Shown here one piece after another: positions 1,977 through 22,770 of a DNA stretch of 22,858 nt; position 1 is the first letter of the stretch; each line of letters starts with the position of its first letter. The notes under the pieces were generated by a model. That model did not search any database and was not told the origin of the DNA. It worked only from the letters and a program-made list of their open reading frames with translations. The position numbers and the translations under genes are program-made. This DNA is from a virus. The stretch spans positions 1 to 22,858 of IMG/VR virus record IMGVR_UViG_3300005529_000103; one strand, given 5' to 3'.

Positions 1977-2852
1977 GTGATCAACCTTGCGCTCACGACG
2001 GACAAGCTGCAGCTCATCACGAGCAGCACCGCGACCGTGGACGTGCACGCCTCCTACGCTGATCGTGACAACTCGACTGGCGCGGTCACCCCTGACAAAC
2101 AGAACACCGCGATCTCGGCGGCGACCACGACTGACATCCTCGGCTCGCCGGCCTCCGGCAAGGTCCGCAACCTCAAGACGATGACGGTGCGCAACCGTGA
2201 TGCGGCGACCTCGTGTGATGTGACCGTGCAGTACAACGCGAACGGCACCGTCTACCAGCTGCACAAGGCCACGCTCGCGCCGGGCGACATGCTGGAGTTC
2301 ACCGAGAGCACCGGCTTCTTCAAGGTGGCCAGCCTCGTCTCCACGGCGCTAGCGAATGCGAGCACCGCCGACCAGACCGGCTTCGCGGCGGACACGTACC
2401 TTGCCGGCTCCAGCCTCACGATCCCGTCGAGCTGGCTCATGGTCGGCACGACCTACGAGATGGTCTTCGACATCACGAAGACCGCGGCGGGTACGGCCAC
2501 GCCAATCATCAACATCCGACTCGGCACGGCAGGCACCACTGCAGACACCGCGCGCAACACGTTCACGTTCGCAGCAGGTACGGCAGCGGCGGACACGGGG
2601 GACGTGCTGCTGAAGGTTTCCTTCCGCTCCGTCGGGTCGGGGACCTCGGCCGTCCTCGCGGGCTTCTCCGTCTTCAAGCACAACCTCGCCTCTACCGGTC
2701 TGCACTCGAACGGCACGCTGGGGTACCAGATGCTGACGTCCGTCTCGGCTGGTTTCGACTCCACCACGCCGACGGTGATTGGCGCGAGCTACAACGGCGG
2801 CACGTCCGCCTCGCACACGATCAAGCTCGTCCGCGCGACCCTGACTAGGTAA
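1977..2852 (+). CDS. beta-rich phage virion protein (tail/decoration)
   Basis: A 291-residue protein starting at GTG 1977, six bases after the GAGGAGGTGA SD at 1961-1970. Residues 1-115 carry a pattern I associate with phage surface proteins: TDKLQLITSSTATVDVHASY, then TPDKQNTAISAATTTDILG, then RNLKTMTVRNRDAATSCDVTVQ and a LAPGDMLEF strand. This looks like a small beta sandwich. Residues about 120-291 form a second beta-rich domain (ADTYLAGSSLTIP, YEMVFDITKTAAGTATP, then VSFRSVGSGTSAVLAGFSV), also typical of phage tail or head fibres. There is no enzyme motif and no membrane segment. The stop and the ATG of the next gene overlap as TAATG (2850-2854). The structural role is inferred from domain style and neighbours. 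Confidence 0.8.
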   Translation: MINLALTTDKLQLITSSTATVDVHASYADRDNSTGAVTPDKQNTAISAATTTDILGSPASGKVRNLKTMTVRNRDAATSCDVTVQYNANGTVYQLHKATLAPGDMLEFTESTGFFKVASLVSTALANASTADQTGFAADTYLAGSSLTIPSSWLMVGTTYEMVFDITKTAAGTATPIINIRLGTAGTTADTARNTFTFAAGTAAADTGDVLLKVSFRSVGSGTSAVLAGFSVFKHNLASTGLHSNGTLGYQMLTSVSAGFDSTTPTVIGASYNGGTSASHTIKLVRATLTR

Positions 2853-3817
2853 TGGCCGGACCACTCGGCTGGTTCGACGCCGAGCTGGTCAGCGACGCCT
2901 GGTTCGACCCTGAGATGCTCTCGGCTGCGTGGTTCGACCGCGAGTTCGCGGACACGACCACCGGGCCGCAGACCATCGCAGTCGGCAGCGTCTCTTCCGC
3001 CCAGGCCTTCGGCACCATCACCCCCGTCCCTGGCGGCGTCACTGTCGCCGTCGGCGGGGTCAGCAGCGCTCAGGCGTTCGGCACGATCAAGGCGAACATC
3101 GCCTTCGGTGTCGGTGGCGTCGCAAGCGCGCAGGCCTTCGGCACACCGACGATCCTCGCAACGATCACGAAGGCCGTCAACGGCGTCACGTCGGCGCAAG
3201 CCTTCGGCACGGTCACCATCGTCCCCGGTCCTGTCACCAAGAGCGTGACGGGGCTCGGTTCGGCGCAAGCCTTCGGCTCGCCGACGATCAAGACTGCGAT
3301 CACGAAGGCCGTCAACGGCGTGCCTTCGGCGCAAGCGTTCGGATCCCCGAGCGCGCTGCCCGGCAGTGTCACGGTTGCGATCACGGGACTGGCATCCGAG
3401 CAGGCGTTCGCCGCGCCGCGCATGAACATCGCGTTCACTGTCGTCGGCGTCTCGTCCGCGCAGGCGTTCGGCAGCCCCACCGTCACCACGACGGGCGGCG
3501 GTCAAGCGGTGAGCGTGACGGGCCTCGGCTCCGCGCAGTCGTTCGGTACGCCGACACCGCTGCCGGGCAACCGCACCGTCTCCGTGACGGGCCTCGGGTC
3601 CGCGCAGCTGTTCGCGGTGCCGCAGGGCAACCAGCGCTTCACTGTGAGCGGCGTGCTCTCGGCGCAGGCGTTCGGCACCATCACGATCATCCCCGGCCCG
3701 ACGGTCGTGCAGATCAACGGCGTGCCGTCGGCGCAAGCCTTCGGCGGGGCAACTCCGCAGGGAGGCGTTGCTCCCACGTTCAACCCCGCTGTCCACGGCG
3801 GACGACACTACATCTAG
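2852..3817 (+). CDS. SAQAFG-repeat virion protein with WFD-repeat N-terminus
   Basis: A 321-residue, almost wholly repetitive protein. The N-terminus has three WFD motifs at residues 7, 17 and 27 (WFDAE, WFDPE, WFDRE), spaced exactly ten residues apart. Residues about 41-298 hold twelve copies of a unit with core G(V/L)xSAQAFG(T/S), degenerate in copies 7 (SEQAFA), 9 (SAQSFG) and 10 (SAQLFA). The C-terminus is FNPAVHGGRHYI. Similar repeats are, to my knowledge, found in minor tail or surface proteins of phages of high-GC hosts, where they probably make an extended beta fibre. The start ATG overlaps the previous stop as TAATG, so translation is coupled. A surface or fibre role is likely; partner and ligand are unknown. 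Confidence 0.8.
   Translation: MAGPLGWFDAELVSDAWFDPEMLSAAWFDREFADTTTGPQTIAVGSVSSAQAFGTITPVPGGVTVAVGGVSSAQAFGTIKANIAFGVGGVASAQAFGTPTILATITKAVNGVTSAQAFGTVTIVPGPVTKSVTGLGSAQAFGSPTIKTAITKAVNGVPSAQAFGSPSALPGSVTVAITGLASEQAFAAPRMNIAFTVVGVSSAQAFGSPTVTTTGGGQAVSVTGLGSAQSFGTPTPLPGNRTVSVTGLGSAQLFAVPQGNQRFTVSGVLSAQAFGTITIIPGPTVVQINGVPSAQAFGGATPQGGVAPTFNPAVHGGRHYI
2975..3745 (+). repeat. twelve tandem SAQAFG coding repeats in alternating pairs
   Basis: In-frame coding repeats inside the gene at 2852. The core encodes G(V/L)xSAQAFG. Linkers alternate for much of the array between a form with a Pro-Gly turn (for example VPGG, VPGP, LPGS, LPGN, IPGP) and a shorter form without it, so the practical period is often two units (about 45 residues, 135 bases). 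At DNA level one 18-base core recurs exactly near 3193, 3258 and 3727, and a stretch of about 25 bases (around CACGAAGGCCGTCAACGG) recurs near 3163 and 3298, 135 bases apart. This suggests growth by duplication of pairs. Confidence 0.9.
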
Positions 3818-3821
3818 GAGG
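3816..3821 (+). promoter_or_regulatory. Shine-Dalgarno site fixing the start at 3827
   Basis: AGGAGG lies at 3816-3821, five bases before ATG 3827. An in-frame GTG at 3821 overlaps this SD and so cannot be served by it, which makes the ATG the likely start of the following gene. The SD also overlaps the stop codon of the repeat-protein gene. Confidence 0.75.
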
Positions 3822-3826
3822 TGAGC

Positions 3827-4213
3827 ATGTACGAACTGATCCCGCTGACTGCGTCTGCGCAGACCGGCAACAACACGCACGCGGGCGTGCAGATCAACTC
3901 CTACAACGCGATTGCGTTCCAACTCGTCGCGGAGGCGGTCGGCGCGACTCCCACGATCACCTGGAAGATCCAGGCGTCCGTGGACGATCTGTCCGTCTCC
4001 GACGGCAACGCTCGCTGGTTCGACGTCGGCTACATCACCGACGCGAGCGACACGATCTCGACCACGACTCGCACGTTCGGTTCGCCGAGCGCGGGGCAGT
4101 CGCAGGTCAGCTTCCTGTCGAACCCGGTGGCGCGCAAGTACCGGCGCTGGCGCGTCGTCACGAGCGCGAACACGAACGTCACGTACCGCGTCGAGGCCTA
4201 CCGGATCAGCTAG
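3827..4213 (+). CDS. small beta-rich virion protein, unknown function
   Basis: A 128-residue protein starting MYELIPLTASAQTG, with the ATG chosen because AGGAGG ends five bases upstream. It is rich in beta-forming residues and Thr/Ser. Visible strands include YNAIAFQLVAEAV, TITWKIQASVDD, RWFDVGYITDASDTI and a C-terminal YRRWRVVTSANTNVTYRVEAYRI. This layout (an outer sandwich with an 'I.WK.QAS.D...W.D....' core) resembles small phage proteins that decorate heads or tails, but I do not recognise a named family. It is the last gene of the surface-protein block; after it come two tiny zinc-motif ORFs and the terminase gene. It has no membrane segment, signal peptide or catalytic motif. Confidence 0.75.
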   Translation: MYELIPLTASAQTGNNTHAGVQINSYNAIAFQLVAEAVGATPTITWKIQASVDDLSVSDGNARWFDVGYITDASDTISTTTRTFGSPSAGQSQVSFLSNPVARKYRRWRVVTSANTNVTYRVEAYRIS

Positions 4214-18622: not shown

Positions 18623-21379
18623 ATGGCCGCACCGTCCCCGCAGGAGATCCTCGGGCTCGGCGGGTCGAGCAGCTCCGGCACGCCAACGCCGGAGGACATC
18701 CTCGGCCTGAGCAACCGGCCGAAGACGCAAGCGCCGAAGAAGTCCGGCGGCCACGGCTTCCTTCACTTCGTGAAGAAGACGGTCGTGACGCCGGCCGAGA
18801 ACCTCGGCAAGGACATCGGTCAAACCGCCGTCGGCATCGCGCCCGGCCTGTACGAGATCGGCAAGGCGACCGTGCTCGACGAGGTGGACTCGCTGCACGG
18901 CAAGAACGGGCACCGGCTGACGAACATCGGCAAGGGCATCGTGAAGCAGTACCGGGACTACTACGGGCACGACGTCGGCAGCCACCTCTACAACCACCCG
19001 CTCCAGCCCATCGTGGACGCCCTGACGGTCGTCGGCGGCGGCGCGGGGGCGGCGGGCAAGCTCGGCGAGGCCACCGGCAGCGCCAAGCTCGCGAGCATCA
19101 CCGAGCGCGGCTCGGTCGTCACTCGCTCCCCGCGCAGGGCAGCCACCGGGAAGGGGCCGCAGCACGTCGACCTGACGTCGACGGCCCCGATCACGAAGGG
19201 CGTGCAGAAGGTGGCCGAGGCGGCGAGGCGCAAGGCACCGGAGGGCGTACGCGTCCCCGGCACGCAGAAGCGCATCGGCGGCGAGATGAAGGCGTACGGC
19301 AAGCAGATCCAGCAGCACGCGACGCAGACCGCGCTCGGCAAGGCGACGGCCATCGAGCCGTACGTCAAGGCGACGAAGCGGCTGCGGCCGGACGAGTGGG
19401 CGGCGCTGCACATCCGGGCCGCCGACATCCACCCCGACGATCTCGCCGACCTGTGGCGCGGCACGCGCAACGAAGCGACGCTGACGCCGAAGGTCCGCGA
19501 CCTCGTGCTCAACCCGTCGAAGCGCATGCAGATCGCCGAGCCGGCGATTCGGCAGCTCTCGGAGGAGGGGGCGAAGCTCTTCAAGGAGCAGGGCCGCCTG
19601 TCCGACGAGGCCGAGCTGTTCCGGCCGGACCTCACCAAGCAGCACGTCGCCGAGGCGCTTGGGCGCAAGCCGAAGGAGATCACGGGCGACCCGTACTACT
19701 TCCCGCACAAGCCGGAGGAGGTCCGGGCCAAGAGCCCGTTCGCCGCCGAGGGCGGGGGCAAGGGCGTGCCGCGCAAGCCGGGCACCGCCAAGAAGAACAC
19801 CGGCTTCCTGTTCACGCACGGCAAGGTGCACCTCCGCACCGATCTGCTCGGGCCGGAGTTCCTGCGGCGCGTGACACTCGGGAAGTACGACGAGGTGCAC
19901 AACGCGCTCGTGCGCGGCTCGATGCCGGTCACTCGCGACTACCTCGAAATGGTGCACGGCGGTCAGCTGCCGCAGGGCTGGGAGTTCGTCCGCCCGAAGG
20001 CGTCGACCAAGATCCCCGGCGACCTCCGCTCGGAGGGAGTCGCGCACACGCCGCTGGATCAGCTCGTGCCGAACGCGCACAACCTGCAGAACAGTCCGCT
20101 CGCCGCGCAGGGCTTCACGACGACCGACATCAACCAGGCGCTCACGACGGGCAAGAAGTACTTCATCGTCCCGAAGAGCACGTCGAAGGCGGCCACGGGC
20201 GAGTTCACGAAGTCGAACGAGTTCGTGCACACGTTCCTGAAGAAGCCGCTCGCCGTGTGGCGGGCTGCAGTGCTCGGCCTGCGTGTCGGCTTCCTGACGA
20301 ACAACCTCGTCGGCAACTCGATCATGTACTCCGTCCGCACGGGCGGCCAGGGGGCGCTGCGCGACCTGTTCGGCGCGATCCTGGAGACGCACGGCCGCGA
20401 GGCGGGCCTGAAGGTGCTCAACTCGAAGGCCACCCCGCCGGAGCTGCGCCGGGACCTCTACAAGGAGTTCTTCCCGGAGCAGACGCACGGCACGTTCGGC
20501 CTCACCCAGTCGCCGGCCACTGAGCGCACGGTGGGCGGGAAGGTCACCAACGTCGCCAAGCGGACGACGGGGGCGCTGCCGAAGCTGACGTCCAAGCTCG
20601 CCGAGGAATACCCGCGGCGGGCGCTGGTGCGTCACTTCATCCGCAAGAGCCCCGAGTTCAAGGCCGTGTACGCGCAGATGCCGCGTGACACGCGCACGTT
20701 CGAGGCGGCGGCGCGCAAGCTCCTCGAAGGCAAGGGCGGCAAGGTGTACCAGCGGGCGATCTCGAAGCAGGTCAACCGCGCGCTCGGGGACTACCTCGGG
20801 CTCTCGCCGTTCGAGCGCAACGTTCTGCGCAACACGCTCCCCTTCTACGCCTGGTACAAGGCCATCGTCACCACGACGGCGCACCTGGCGACGGATGCCC
20901 CGCTCCGCGCGAACATCCTCGGCCAGATCGGCGCTATCGGGAACGAGAAGGAGAACCTGGAGCTGGGCGATGTTCCGTCGTTCCTGCGCGGGGCCATCGG
21001 CCTCGGCCAGGGCAAGGACGGCACGATCCGCGTGCTCAGCACGCAGGGCGCGAACCCGTACGCCACGCTGGAGCAGCTGCGGCGCGGGGGCACCGAGGAC
21101 CTTCAGAGCCTCGGACTGAACCCGTTCGTCGCCGGCCTACTCGACGCGTACGCGAAGGGCAGCCAGAACAGCGGCCAGGTCGGCCCCGGCTCGGTGGTCG
21201 CGAAGACGCTGGCCTCCATGATGGAGAACCTGCCGATCTCCCGCGTCGCGAAGCCGAAGAAGCCGTCTCGGCTCTACCCGAACCGCGACCGGACCGCAGA
21301 GGCGCTCTCGTTCCTCGGCGTGCCGATCAAAGAGTACGACCCGCACGAAGCGGCCTACCAGAAGAGCCTGGGCCGCTAG
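18623..21379 (+). CDS. large internal virion/ejection-type protein (918 residues)
   Basis: Starts at ATG 18623, two bases after the previous stop; the same frame is open further upstream but that part overlaps the 17035 gene and is Arg/Ser-rich shadow. The N-terminus repeats a short motif, PSPQEILGLGG (4-14) and PTPEDILGLSN (21-31). A basic segment (KTQAPKKSGGHG) and a Gly/Ala-rich hydrophobic stretch (about 131-150) follow. The C-terminal third has amphipathic and hydrophobic segments at about 545-575 (VWRAAVLGLRVGFLTNNLVG) and 730-750 (FERNVLRNTLPFYAWYKAIV). The end is FLGVPIKEYDPHEAAYQK. Large proteins of this form near lysin genes are usually internal virion proteins. No peptidase, transglycosylase or polymerase motif is recognised. 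Confidence 0.65.
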   Translation: MAAPSPQEILGLGGSSSSGTPTPEDILGLSNRPKTQAPKKSGGHGFLHFVKKTVVTPAENLGKDIGQTAVGIAPGLYEIGKATVLDEVDSLHGKNGHRLTNIGKGIVKQYRDYYGHDVGSHLYNHPLQPIVDALTVVGGGAGAAGKLGEATGSAKLASITERGSVVTRSPRRAATGKGPQHVDLTSTAPITKGVQKVAEAARRKAPEGVRVPGTQKRIGGEMKAYGKQIQQHATQTALGKATAIEPYVKATKRLRPDEWAALHIRAADIHPDDLADLWRGTRNEATLTPKVRDLVLNPSKRMQIAEPAIRQLSEEGAKLFKEQGRLSDEAELFRPDLTKQHVAEALGRKPKEITGDPYYFPHKPEEVRAKSPFAAEGGGKGVPRKPGTAKKNTGFLFTHGKVHLRTDLLGPEFLRRVTLGKYDEVHNALVRGSMPVTRDYLEMVHGGQLPQGWEFVRPKASTKIPGDLRSEGVAHTPLDQLVPNAHNLQNSPLAAQGFTTTDINQALTTGKKYFIVPKSTSKAATGEFTKSNEFVHTFLKKPLAVWRAAVLGLRVGFLTNNLVGNSIMYSVRTGGQGALRDLFGAILETHGREAGLKVLNSKATPPELRRDLYKEFFPEQTHGTFGLTQSPATERTVGGKVTNVAKRTTGALPKLTSKLAEEYPRRALVRHFIRKSPEFKAVYAQMPRDTRTFEAAARKLLEGKGGKVYQRAISKQVNRALGDYLGLSPFERNVLRNTLPFYAWYKAIVTTTAHLATDAPLRANILGQIGAIGNEKENLELGDVPSFLRGAIGLGQGKDGTIRVLSTQGANPYATLEQLRRGGTEDLQSLGLNPFVAGLLDAYAKGSQNSGQVGPGSVVAKTLASMMENLPISRVAKPKKPSRLYPNRDRTAEALSFLGVPIKEYDPHEAAYQKSLGR

Positions 21380-21585
21380 TGCAGCGCGTGCAGCAGGCCT
21401 GACGCGAGCAGCACCGCGACCCCGACCGCCAGCAGTCCGAGGAGGATGCCGGCCGGCACGAGGAACGCGATGTGCGGCTTGCTCAGGCCGCTGCCTGCGC
21501 TCGTGCGCGGAACGCGCTCGAACCAGTCCTCAGCGGGCAGCTGCTCGCGTTTCACGACGTCAACGTACCAGAGGAGGTTGCCCAT
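21376..21585 (-). CDS. possible minus-strand single-pass membrane protein
   Basis: The only credible minus-strand ORF. Read from ATG 21585 it gives 69 residues: a polar N-terminus (VVKREQLPAEDWFERVPRT), then one strong hydrophobic helix at about 38-66 (AFLVPAGILLGLLAVGVAVL) and a short His-ending tail. A GTG at 21555 is another start (59 residues, VKREQLP onward). It fills the 204-base gap between plus-strand genes that are otherwise nearly touching. Its start overlaps the lysin start in CCATGG, and its stop overlaps the upstream stop in CTAG. Codons look like those of the real genes (GC-rich third positions). Against it: no clear SD or promoter is seen, and antisense ORFs are common in GC-rich DNA. 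A membrane protein beside a lysin could be a holin, antiholin or exclusion protein (inference). Confidence 0.45.
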   Translation of the reverse strand: MGNLLWYVDVVKREQLPAEDWFERVPRTSAGSGLSKPHIAFLVPAGILLGLLAVGVAVLLASGLLHALH

Positions 21586-22570
21586 GGCGAACCCCAGGGC
21601 CGAGCTGATCGCCCGCATGGCGCGACAGCGTGGGCTCGATCCCAACGCGGTGCTCGCCATCGCCTCCGTGGAGGGCGGCTTCAACGGAGCCGTCGGCGAC
21701 AACGGCACCTCGTTCGGACCGTTCCAGCTCCACAAGGGCGGGGCGCTCCCGAGCGTGGCCAACCCGCAGCAGTTCGCCAACAGTCCGCAGGGCTACGCGT
21801 ACGCGCTCGACGCCATCCAGAAGGTCGCGGGCGGGCTCAAGGGGCAGAAGGCCATCGCGGCCATCGCCTCGAAGTTCGAGCGGCCCGCCGACGTCCAGGG
21901 CGAGATCGCCAAGGCCTCCTCCCGCTACGGCGGCGCTGTCGGCTCCGGCCTACCCGTTGGCGGCGGGGTGCCGGCGCTCTCTCCGCAGGGAGGTAGCGCT
22001 CCCGTCGCGTCGCCGGTCCTCGGCCTACTGCAGGCCATGGGGCAGACCGTGCAGGGGCAGCAGAACCCGCTCCTGCAGCTCGCCCTCTCGCGCTTCCAGC
22101 TCCAGGCCGCAACGTCTCAGTTCGGCGCGCAGCCGAGCACGGGCAGCAAGCTCACACCGCAGGGGCCGAGCGTCGACCCCGGCTTCCAGGCCCCGCTGCT
22201 CCAGGGAGCGAAGGTCGACCCGGGCTTCTTCACCGGAACGCCGACGAAGGGCGAGGACGCCGGCTTCCTGACCAAGCTCGCGCAGGCCTCGCAGGCCGCG
22301 GGGGCCACGAAGATCCGCGTCACCTCCGGCCGCCGCTCTGCGGAGCACAACTCGGCCGTGGGCGGCGTGCAGAACTCGAACCACCTGACCGGCCACGCCC
22401 TCGACGGCGAGGCCTACGTGCCCGGCCGCGGCTGGGTGCCCCTCGGGACGCTGCTGAAGAAGGTCGCCCCGCGCTACGGGCTGCGCTCCGGCGATCAGCC
22501 CGGCTTCTTCAACGGCGGCACCGACCCTGTTCATGTCGACGACGGATTCAACCTGCGGGGGTCTGCGTAG
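21584..22570 (+). CDS. two-domain peptidoglycan-degrading enzyme (transglycosylase-like plus M15 peptidase)
   Basis: The ATG at 21584 follows GAGGAGG closely; a longer upstream read is Arg/Ser-rich and rejected. The 328 residues have an N-terminal lysozyme/transglycosylase-like domain (about 1-118) with E30 in IASVEGGFNGAVGDNG and the substrate-loop pattern GTSFGPFQLHKGGALP. A Gln/Pro/Gly-rich linker (about 119-225) follows. The C-terminal M15-type zinc D,D-/L,D-peptidase domain (about 226-328) has SGRRSAEHN, SNHLTGHALD and DPVHVDDG, with likely zinc ligands H267, D274 and H317. One domain would cut glycan chains and the other peptide cross-links. Its place after ejection-type genes and before a holin candidate fits either an endolysin or a virion lysin used at entry. 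It has no signal peptide. Confidence 0.85.
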   Translation: MANPRAELIARMARQRGLDPNAVLAIASVEGGFNGAVGDNGTSFGPFQLHKGGALPSVANPQQFANSPQGYAYALDAIQKVAGGLKGQKAIAAIASKFERPADVQGEIAKASSRYGGAVGSGLPVGGGVPALSPQGGSAPVASPVLGLLQAMGQTVQGQQNPLLQLALSRFQLQAATSQFGAQPSTGSKLTPQGPSVDPGFQAPLLQGAKVDPGFFTGTPTKGEDAGFLTKLAQASQAAGATKIRVTSGRRSAEHNSAVGGVQNSNHLTGHALDGEAYVPGRGWVPLGTLLKKVAPRYGLRSGDQPGFFNGGTDPVHVDDGFNLRGSA

Positions 22571-22770
22571 TGGCATCTGCACTGGAAATGCTCGTCGAGG
22601 TCTCTGAGCGCACGGCGCGCATTGAGGAGAAGCTCGACTCCCTCGGTCACATGGTCGAGGACCACGAGGAGCGCATCCGCTCCAACGAGCGCTGGCGCTG
22701 GGGCATCCCCGGTGCTGGCCTGCTGGCCCTGATCTCAGCCGTCCTCGGCGGCGCTGGGCACAGCGGCTAA
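22570..22770 (+). CDS. XhlA-like holin candidate
   Basis: A 66-residue protein from GTG 22570 in the TAGTG overlap with the lysin gene. Residues about 7-44 are a charged coiled coil (VSERTARIEEKLDSLGHMVE, then DHEERIRSNERWRW), followed by one hydrophobic segment GIPGAGLLALISAVLGGAG (about 45-63) and a short tail. This coiled-coil-plus-single-helix layout is that of XhlA-type phage membrane proteins that work with lysins in host lysis. Coupled translation with the lysin supports a lysis role. Whether it forms holes alone or needs the next gene is unknown. Confidence 0.75.
   Translation: MASALEMLVEVSERTARIEEKLDSLGHMVEDHEERIRSNERWRWGIPGAGLLALISAVLGGAGHSG

Follow-up and report, generated by a model that had tools for sequence, protein, structure and literature searches.

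Gene order from the late virion gene to the lysin

The stretch analysed here (the window) is a whole virus entry of 22,858 bp, in which the called genes all lie on the plus strand with the exception of one minus-strand ORF at 21376–21585, as the original prediction had stated (Table 1). The portal encoded in the window matches the P22_portal family, no tRNA gene was found within the window, and no integrase was seen in the record, which is incomplete. Between the stop codon of a 918-aa gene (21379) and the ATG of the lysin gene (21584) lie 204 bp that hold no plausible plus-strand gene. This opening is the only such gap from the putative ejection-protein gene to the lysin gene, and the minus-strand frame, open from 21585 to 21376, fills it, so that the gap and its occupant were found as originally described. 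The 918-aa protein had no match in PHROG or Pfam and is presumed to act as an ejection or internal virion protein.

The lysin ATG is preceded by the Shine–Dalgarno sequence AGGAGGT (21572–21578). An N-terminal extension of the lysin into the gap, by the plus-strand ORF beginning at 21446, was considered and rejected because of its coding score of −0.34 and the good Shine–Dalgarno sequence ahead of ATG 21584. Compared with the lysin of a related contig (L024:17241–18263), the N-terminal part of the window lysin is approximately 60% identical and the catalytic C-terminal parts are swapped, peptidase M15 in the window corresponding to a part that appears by eye to be NlpC/P60-like in L024. An 11-nt near-repeat, TACCAGA[AG]GAG, occurs on either side of the opening (21356–21366 and 21566–21576, spacing 210); it could be the trace of an insertion or a product of chance.

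Table 1. Features at the junction of the late virion and lysin genes (window coordinates)
Feature	Position	Strand	Remarks
Late virion gene of 918 aa, presumed to encode an ejection or internal virion protein	18623–21379	+	Position and family conserved in relatives
Weak terminator-like hairpin	21334–21346	−	Downstream of the minus-strand gene, inside the plus-strand gene; 1 found versus 0.5 expected by chance
Maximal ATG-started ORF, 69 aa (P0001)	21376–21585	−	Fills the gap; gene-like in codon score and in GC at each codon position; no homologue found
Probable coding sequence from GTG 21555, 59 aa	21376–21555	−	Exactly 6 nt separate TACGTT from this in-frame GTG
Opening of 204 bp	21380–21583		From ejection-type gene to lysin gene; closed in most relatives
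Coding region of the single transmembrane helix	21391–21471	−	About residues 39–65 of P0001; hydropathy up to 2.68
Extended −10 promoter-like site, TGGTACGTT	21562–21570	−	TGNTANNNT occurs nowhere else on either strand of the window
Lysin, transglycosylase-like N-part and peptidase M15 C-part	21584–22570	+	PF08291, PHROG endolysin
Holin-like small membrane protein (XhlA-like)	22570–22770	+	phrog_5225 and phrog_689 holin, E 2e-4

Coding signal, start and product of the minus-strand ORF

The openness of the minus frame is by itself no evidence for a gene, since an open frame was found in 96% of random (Markov) 204-mers of the same composition. The codon score of the ORF (0.31) was reached by none of 40,000 Markov random sequences, and it exceeded both the best value among 104 other non-gene ORFs (0.18) and the values of all 850 windows obtained from real genes in the five incorrect frames. 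It fell inside the range of 207-base windows taken from real genes, 76% of which scored higher. GC content by codon position was 0.76/0.41/0.90, versus 0.63/0.47/0.91 in the phage genes, and the overall GC of the gap (0.70) was not unlike that of the window (0.67). The native-looking codons noted in the original prediction were thus confirmed by the score, while its argument from the edges of the ORF was abandoned: the overlaps CTAG and CCATGG are both palindromic and carry little weight. A minus-strand TAG beneath a plus-strand gene ending in CTAG arises automatically, which removes the stop overlap as support, and the start overlap had rightly been called weak from the outset. We consider it very probable that the ORF is a genuine protein gene.

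The start was revised. Neither ATG 21585, the start initially assumed, nor ATG 21618 has a Shine–Dalgarno sequence or a −10 box at the right distance, and the GTG at 21555, in the same frame, is a better candidate. Judging from the sequence, GTG 21555 is the likely start, giving a product of 59 aa, and the gene probably has its own bacterial-type promoter. Of the 1190 [AG]TG codons on both strands of the window, GTG 21555 is the only one with TANNNT at a 6-nt spacing; a sigma70 −35/−10 scan found nothing. This GTG was picked among a few in-frame starts after the promoter-like site had been seen, so the window case has less weight of its own. In Mycobacterium tuberculosis, promoters carry TANNNT centred 7–12 bp before the start site, a quarter of the genes are leaderless, and leaderless mRNAs start with ATG or GTG (PMC3898074). 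The TANNNT box ahead of GTG 21555 lies within this range of distances, and no Shine–Dalgarno sequence precedes the GTG.

P0001 has a short charged N-terminal part followed by a C-terminal helix, which makes it a small one-helix membrane protein adjoining the lysin gene. The strong membrane helix that had been predicted was recovered both by hydropathy, with a Kyte–Doolittle maximum of 2.68, the highest among non-gene ORFs, and by the AlphaFold model, in which residues 37–68 form a helix (pLDDT about 86–95); this model, made from the single sequence, consisted of helices only (pTM 0.36). Comparison with phage proteins, which had been proposed as a check, yielded no homologue and named neither of the two suggested functions, antiholin and superinfection exclusion. 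Homologues of the 69-aa product were likewise not found in plasmids, IMG/VR contigs and GTDB genomes, and it had no match in PHROGs, Pfam, NCBIfam, PADLOC or PDB, including the holin families of PHROG and Pfam. The motif FxRYPxEAxxFNK of SieA types A–C does not occur in the 69 aa, and no similarity to SieA was found.

The same junction in related phages

Approximately 40 contigs of relatives were collected by portal, ejection-type and lysin searches. No relative turned up when GTDB genomes were searched for prophages by means of the ejection-protein alignment. About 30 of the relatives have a closed junction, in which the ejection-type gene is followed by another plus-strand gene at a distance of no more than 34 bp and frequently of 9 bp. 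Wider junctions are filled by plus-strand genes in L038, L043 and L047 (small genes) and in L156, with no minus-strand gene called; the ORF in L156 (6605–7017, plus strand) looks secreted and, by eye, CAP/SCP-like. Relatives with the same gene order to the left and right of the junction lack the extra minus-strand gene. Since the junction is that short or plus-filled in about 30 relatives, the gap in the window was interpreted as an insertion. Openings without a plus-strand gene were found in the window, L138, L141, L057, L062/063/064 and L068, and a minus-strand membrane ORF was present in every one of them. The comparison with related phages that the original prediction had pointed to came out in its favour where the junction is open, by way of unrelated minus-strand membrane ORFs; the junction is mostly closed or plus-filled, and no homologue of the frame itself was found in the relatives.

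L138 and L141 each carry a lone minus-strand single-helix ORF, and these are sequence-unrelated. The L138 ORF (47 aa) has a coding score that beats 5000 nulls. The L141 ORF, whose frame extends past the gap, is weaker (0.4% of nulls on score alone, 0 when the helix is included). Their starts had been fixed beforehand from the coding scores, and TACCGT and TACACT, respectively, lie exactly 6 nt upstream. TANNNT at exactly this distance from a start-like codon occurs once per locus (1/1190 in the window, 1/649 in L138, and 1/558 in L141), and the single occurrence falls each time at the lone minus-strand gene. The joint chance for the L138 and L141 starts is approximately 3 in a million at the exact spacing and somewhat higher with neighbouring spacings counted in. 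When 33 loci (864 kb) were scanned blindly for TANNNT–N6–start, 20 ORFs were returned, of which only four had a hydropathy of at least 2.5, namely those of the window, L138, L141 and L143, all of them lone minus-strand ORFs in a late-operon gap. The L143 ORF (3939–4079, 46 aa, single helix) has TGGTACGGT six bases before its GTG and fills a 167-bp gap that lies a slot further upstream: the virion gene before the gap ends in CTAG (3942), and the ejection-type gene follows it (ATG 4110). Of the six frames, that of the L143 ORF has the best codon score, which is nonetheless neutral. An integrase is present in the records of L138, L141 and L143. Elsewhere, a segment shared by two contigs (L161:10694–11127, minus strand; L025:10489–10922, plus strand) holds two overlapping ORFs near an integrase, both with TANNNT six bases before the start.

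The remaining openings (L057, L062/063/064 and L068) contain a homologous minus-strand cassette with a two-helix protein that is unlike P0001. The two-helix gene is under purifying selection, as 14 of the 15 codon differences between L062 and L063 are synonymous (L064 is identical to L062 there). In G010, a gene on the plus strand behind the lysin (L026:8214–8429) encodes a homologous product (29/68 identities) with faint similarity to a holin family (phrog_443, E 0.05); the copy at the junction looks as if a lysis-type gene had been moved and flipped. Integrases were not detected in the records with these lysis-like genes. In L057 the junction between ejection-type gene and lysin also holds 22 tRNA genes (2046–3904, minus strand), followed by three minus-strand protein genes.

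Possible functions and comparison with known systems

It is quite likely that the minus-strand gene is an autonomously expressed moron. The predicted moron-like gene is well supported by its coding signal, its promoter-like site, its absence from most relatives and the analogous minus-strand genes elsewhere; its edge overlaps no longer count as evidence, and the ATG is probably not its start. For expression, timing, function and the lysogeny of the window phage we infer the following course. An insertion would have brought a moron, in minus-strand orientation, into the junction of the late virion gene with the lysin gene. The host RNA polymerase would start at the extended −10 TGGTACGTT, just upstream of the lysin ribosome-binding region, producing a leaderless mRNA that begins at or beside GTG 21555 and is translated into a single-pass membrane protein of 59 aa. 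Expression would take place while the late operon is silent, in the lysogen or early in infection, and convergent late plus-strand transcription would shut the gene off. The product would most likely alter the host envelope to the benefit of the prophage, and might block DNA entry of related phages, as SieA of P22 does. Superinfection exclusion, proposed by analogy, is favoured because of position, orientation, temperate relatives and the apparent own promoter, for which P22 sieA is the precedent; as a function it is tentative, and it is the leading single guess ahead of lysis control and other lysogenic functions. For the reading as a whole, a leaderless minus-strand moron between late virion and lysin genes with exclusion as its leading function, we see about even chances.

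The protein might instead serve lysogenic conversion in another way, as a toxin-like, host-physiology or envelope-altering protein or as a defence against unrelated phages, with no block of DNA entry. Diverse cargo of this kind predicts sequence-unrelated proteins in the slot across phages, as found, and leaderless mRNAs are over-represented in the toxin–antitoxin modules of M. tuberculosis (PMC3898074), but no match in PADLOC, NCBIfam, Pfam or PHROG and nothing else positive speaks for a specific activity, and we regard this explanation as somewhat unlikely. Lysis control, with an antiholin or small holin beside the lysin timing lysis from the opposite strand, would fit the adjoining lysin gene, the selected two-helix protein at the same junction in five relatives and its homologue downstream of the G010 lysin with the faint holin match. 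Nevertheless, P0001 has one helix and resembles neither the two-helix proteins nor any holin family, the plus strand already provides a holin-like gene, a host-type promoter and a lone position are unlike a lysis cassette, and integrases accompany the lone leaderless genes rather than the lysis-like ones; a lysis role is a serious alternative, though rather improbable. It is very improbable that the minus promoter matters and not the protein, through antisense RNA or through interference with transcription between the virion and lysis genes: the site, which is directed opposite to the late operon, adjoins the ribosome-binding region of the lysin, and the plus strand of the gap folds more stably than shuffled sequence (z −2.5), but no Rfam match was found, and the codon signature and membrane helix would be left unexplained. 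Least probable of all is a chance open frame in a high-GC spacer, for which the ease of open frames in GC-rich random sequence, the palindromic edges and the missing homologue might be cited, against a codon score unreached at random and a promoter-like geometry common to independent relatives.

Returning to the moron with a possible exclusion function, the pattern in L138, L141 and L143 suggests a slot for add-on genes, for example, ones that stop the entry of rival phages. The broader notion of a widespread, unrecognised class of mini-morons is speculative and on balance doubtful. Such a class would comprise lone leaderless minus-strand genes of 45–60 codons for single-helix proteins, filling opened late-operon gaps of temperate phages with P22-type portals, with sequence-unrelated proteins swapped in the same design and excluding relatives whose ejection-protein genes are the immediate neighbours. 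Very short leaderless genes opposite a late operon are easily overlooked by annotation; if the class is real, a search rule of TANNNT, six bases, a start codon and one membrane helix in a late-operon gap would lead to uncharacterised prophage cargo.

Morons of temperate phages are extra genes in a tightly packed late operon, absent from relatives and equipped with their own promoter; a base composition unlike that of the surrounding genome is common among them and not required. The window gene resembles them in being extra in a packed late operon, absent from relatives and apparently served by its own promoter, and differs in that it shows no compositional difference and has a weak terminator, while expression in the lysogen is presumed. 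With the two-helix, holin-like genes of the relatives it shares the junction, the strand and a small membrane product; those genes are non-homologous, belong to a multi-gene minus-strand cassette and start without the leaderless geometry. TANNNT with a 6-nt spacer, the GTG start and the lack of a Shine–Dalgarno sequence are as in actinobacterial leaderless genes (PMC3898074); use of the signal by the host of the window phage is presumed.

The closest parallel is sieA of P22, a phage with the same portal type. This gene, too, encodes a membrane protein on the minus strand and, within the late operon, follows immediately on the last of the ejection-protein genes. The window gene lies on the minus strand immediately after the ejection-type gene, whose ejection role is putative. 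P22 sieA has its own promoter and sits in a variable slot (gene 16–gene 9 region), where it is absent or different in relatives, and escape mutants have been mapped to gp16 and gp20, both ejection proteins (PMC10883804). The two systems differ in that SieA has 162–164 aa and three predicted helices versus one helix in the window protein, with no sequence similarity, and in that the next late gene is the tailspike in P22 and the lysin in the window; SieA excludes related phages, and for the window protein exclusion is a candidate function. If the proposed reading is true, the sieA arrangement extends to unrelated phages that have not been cultured.
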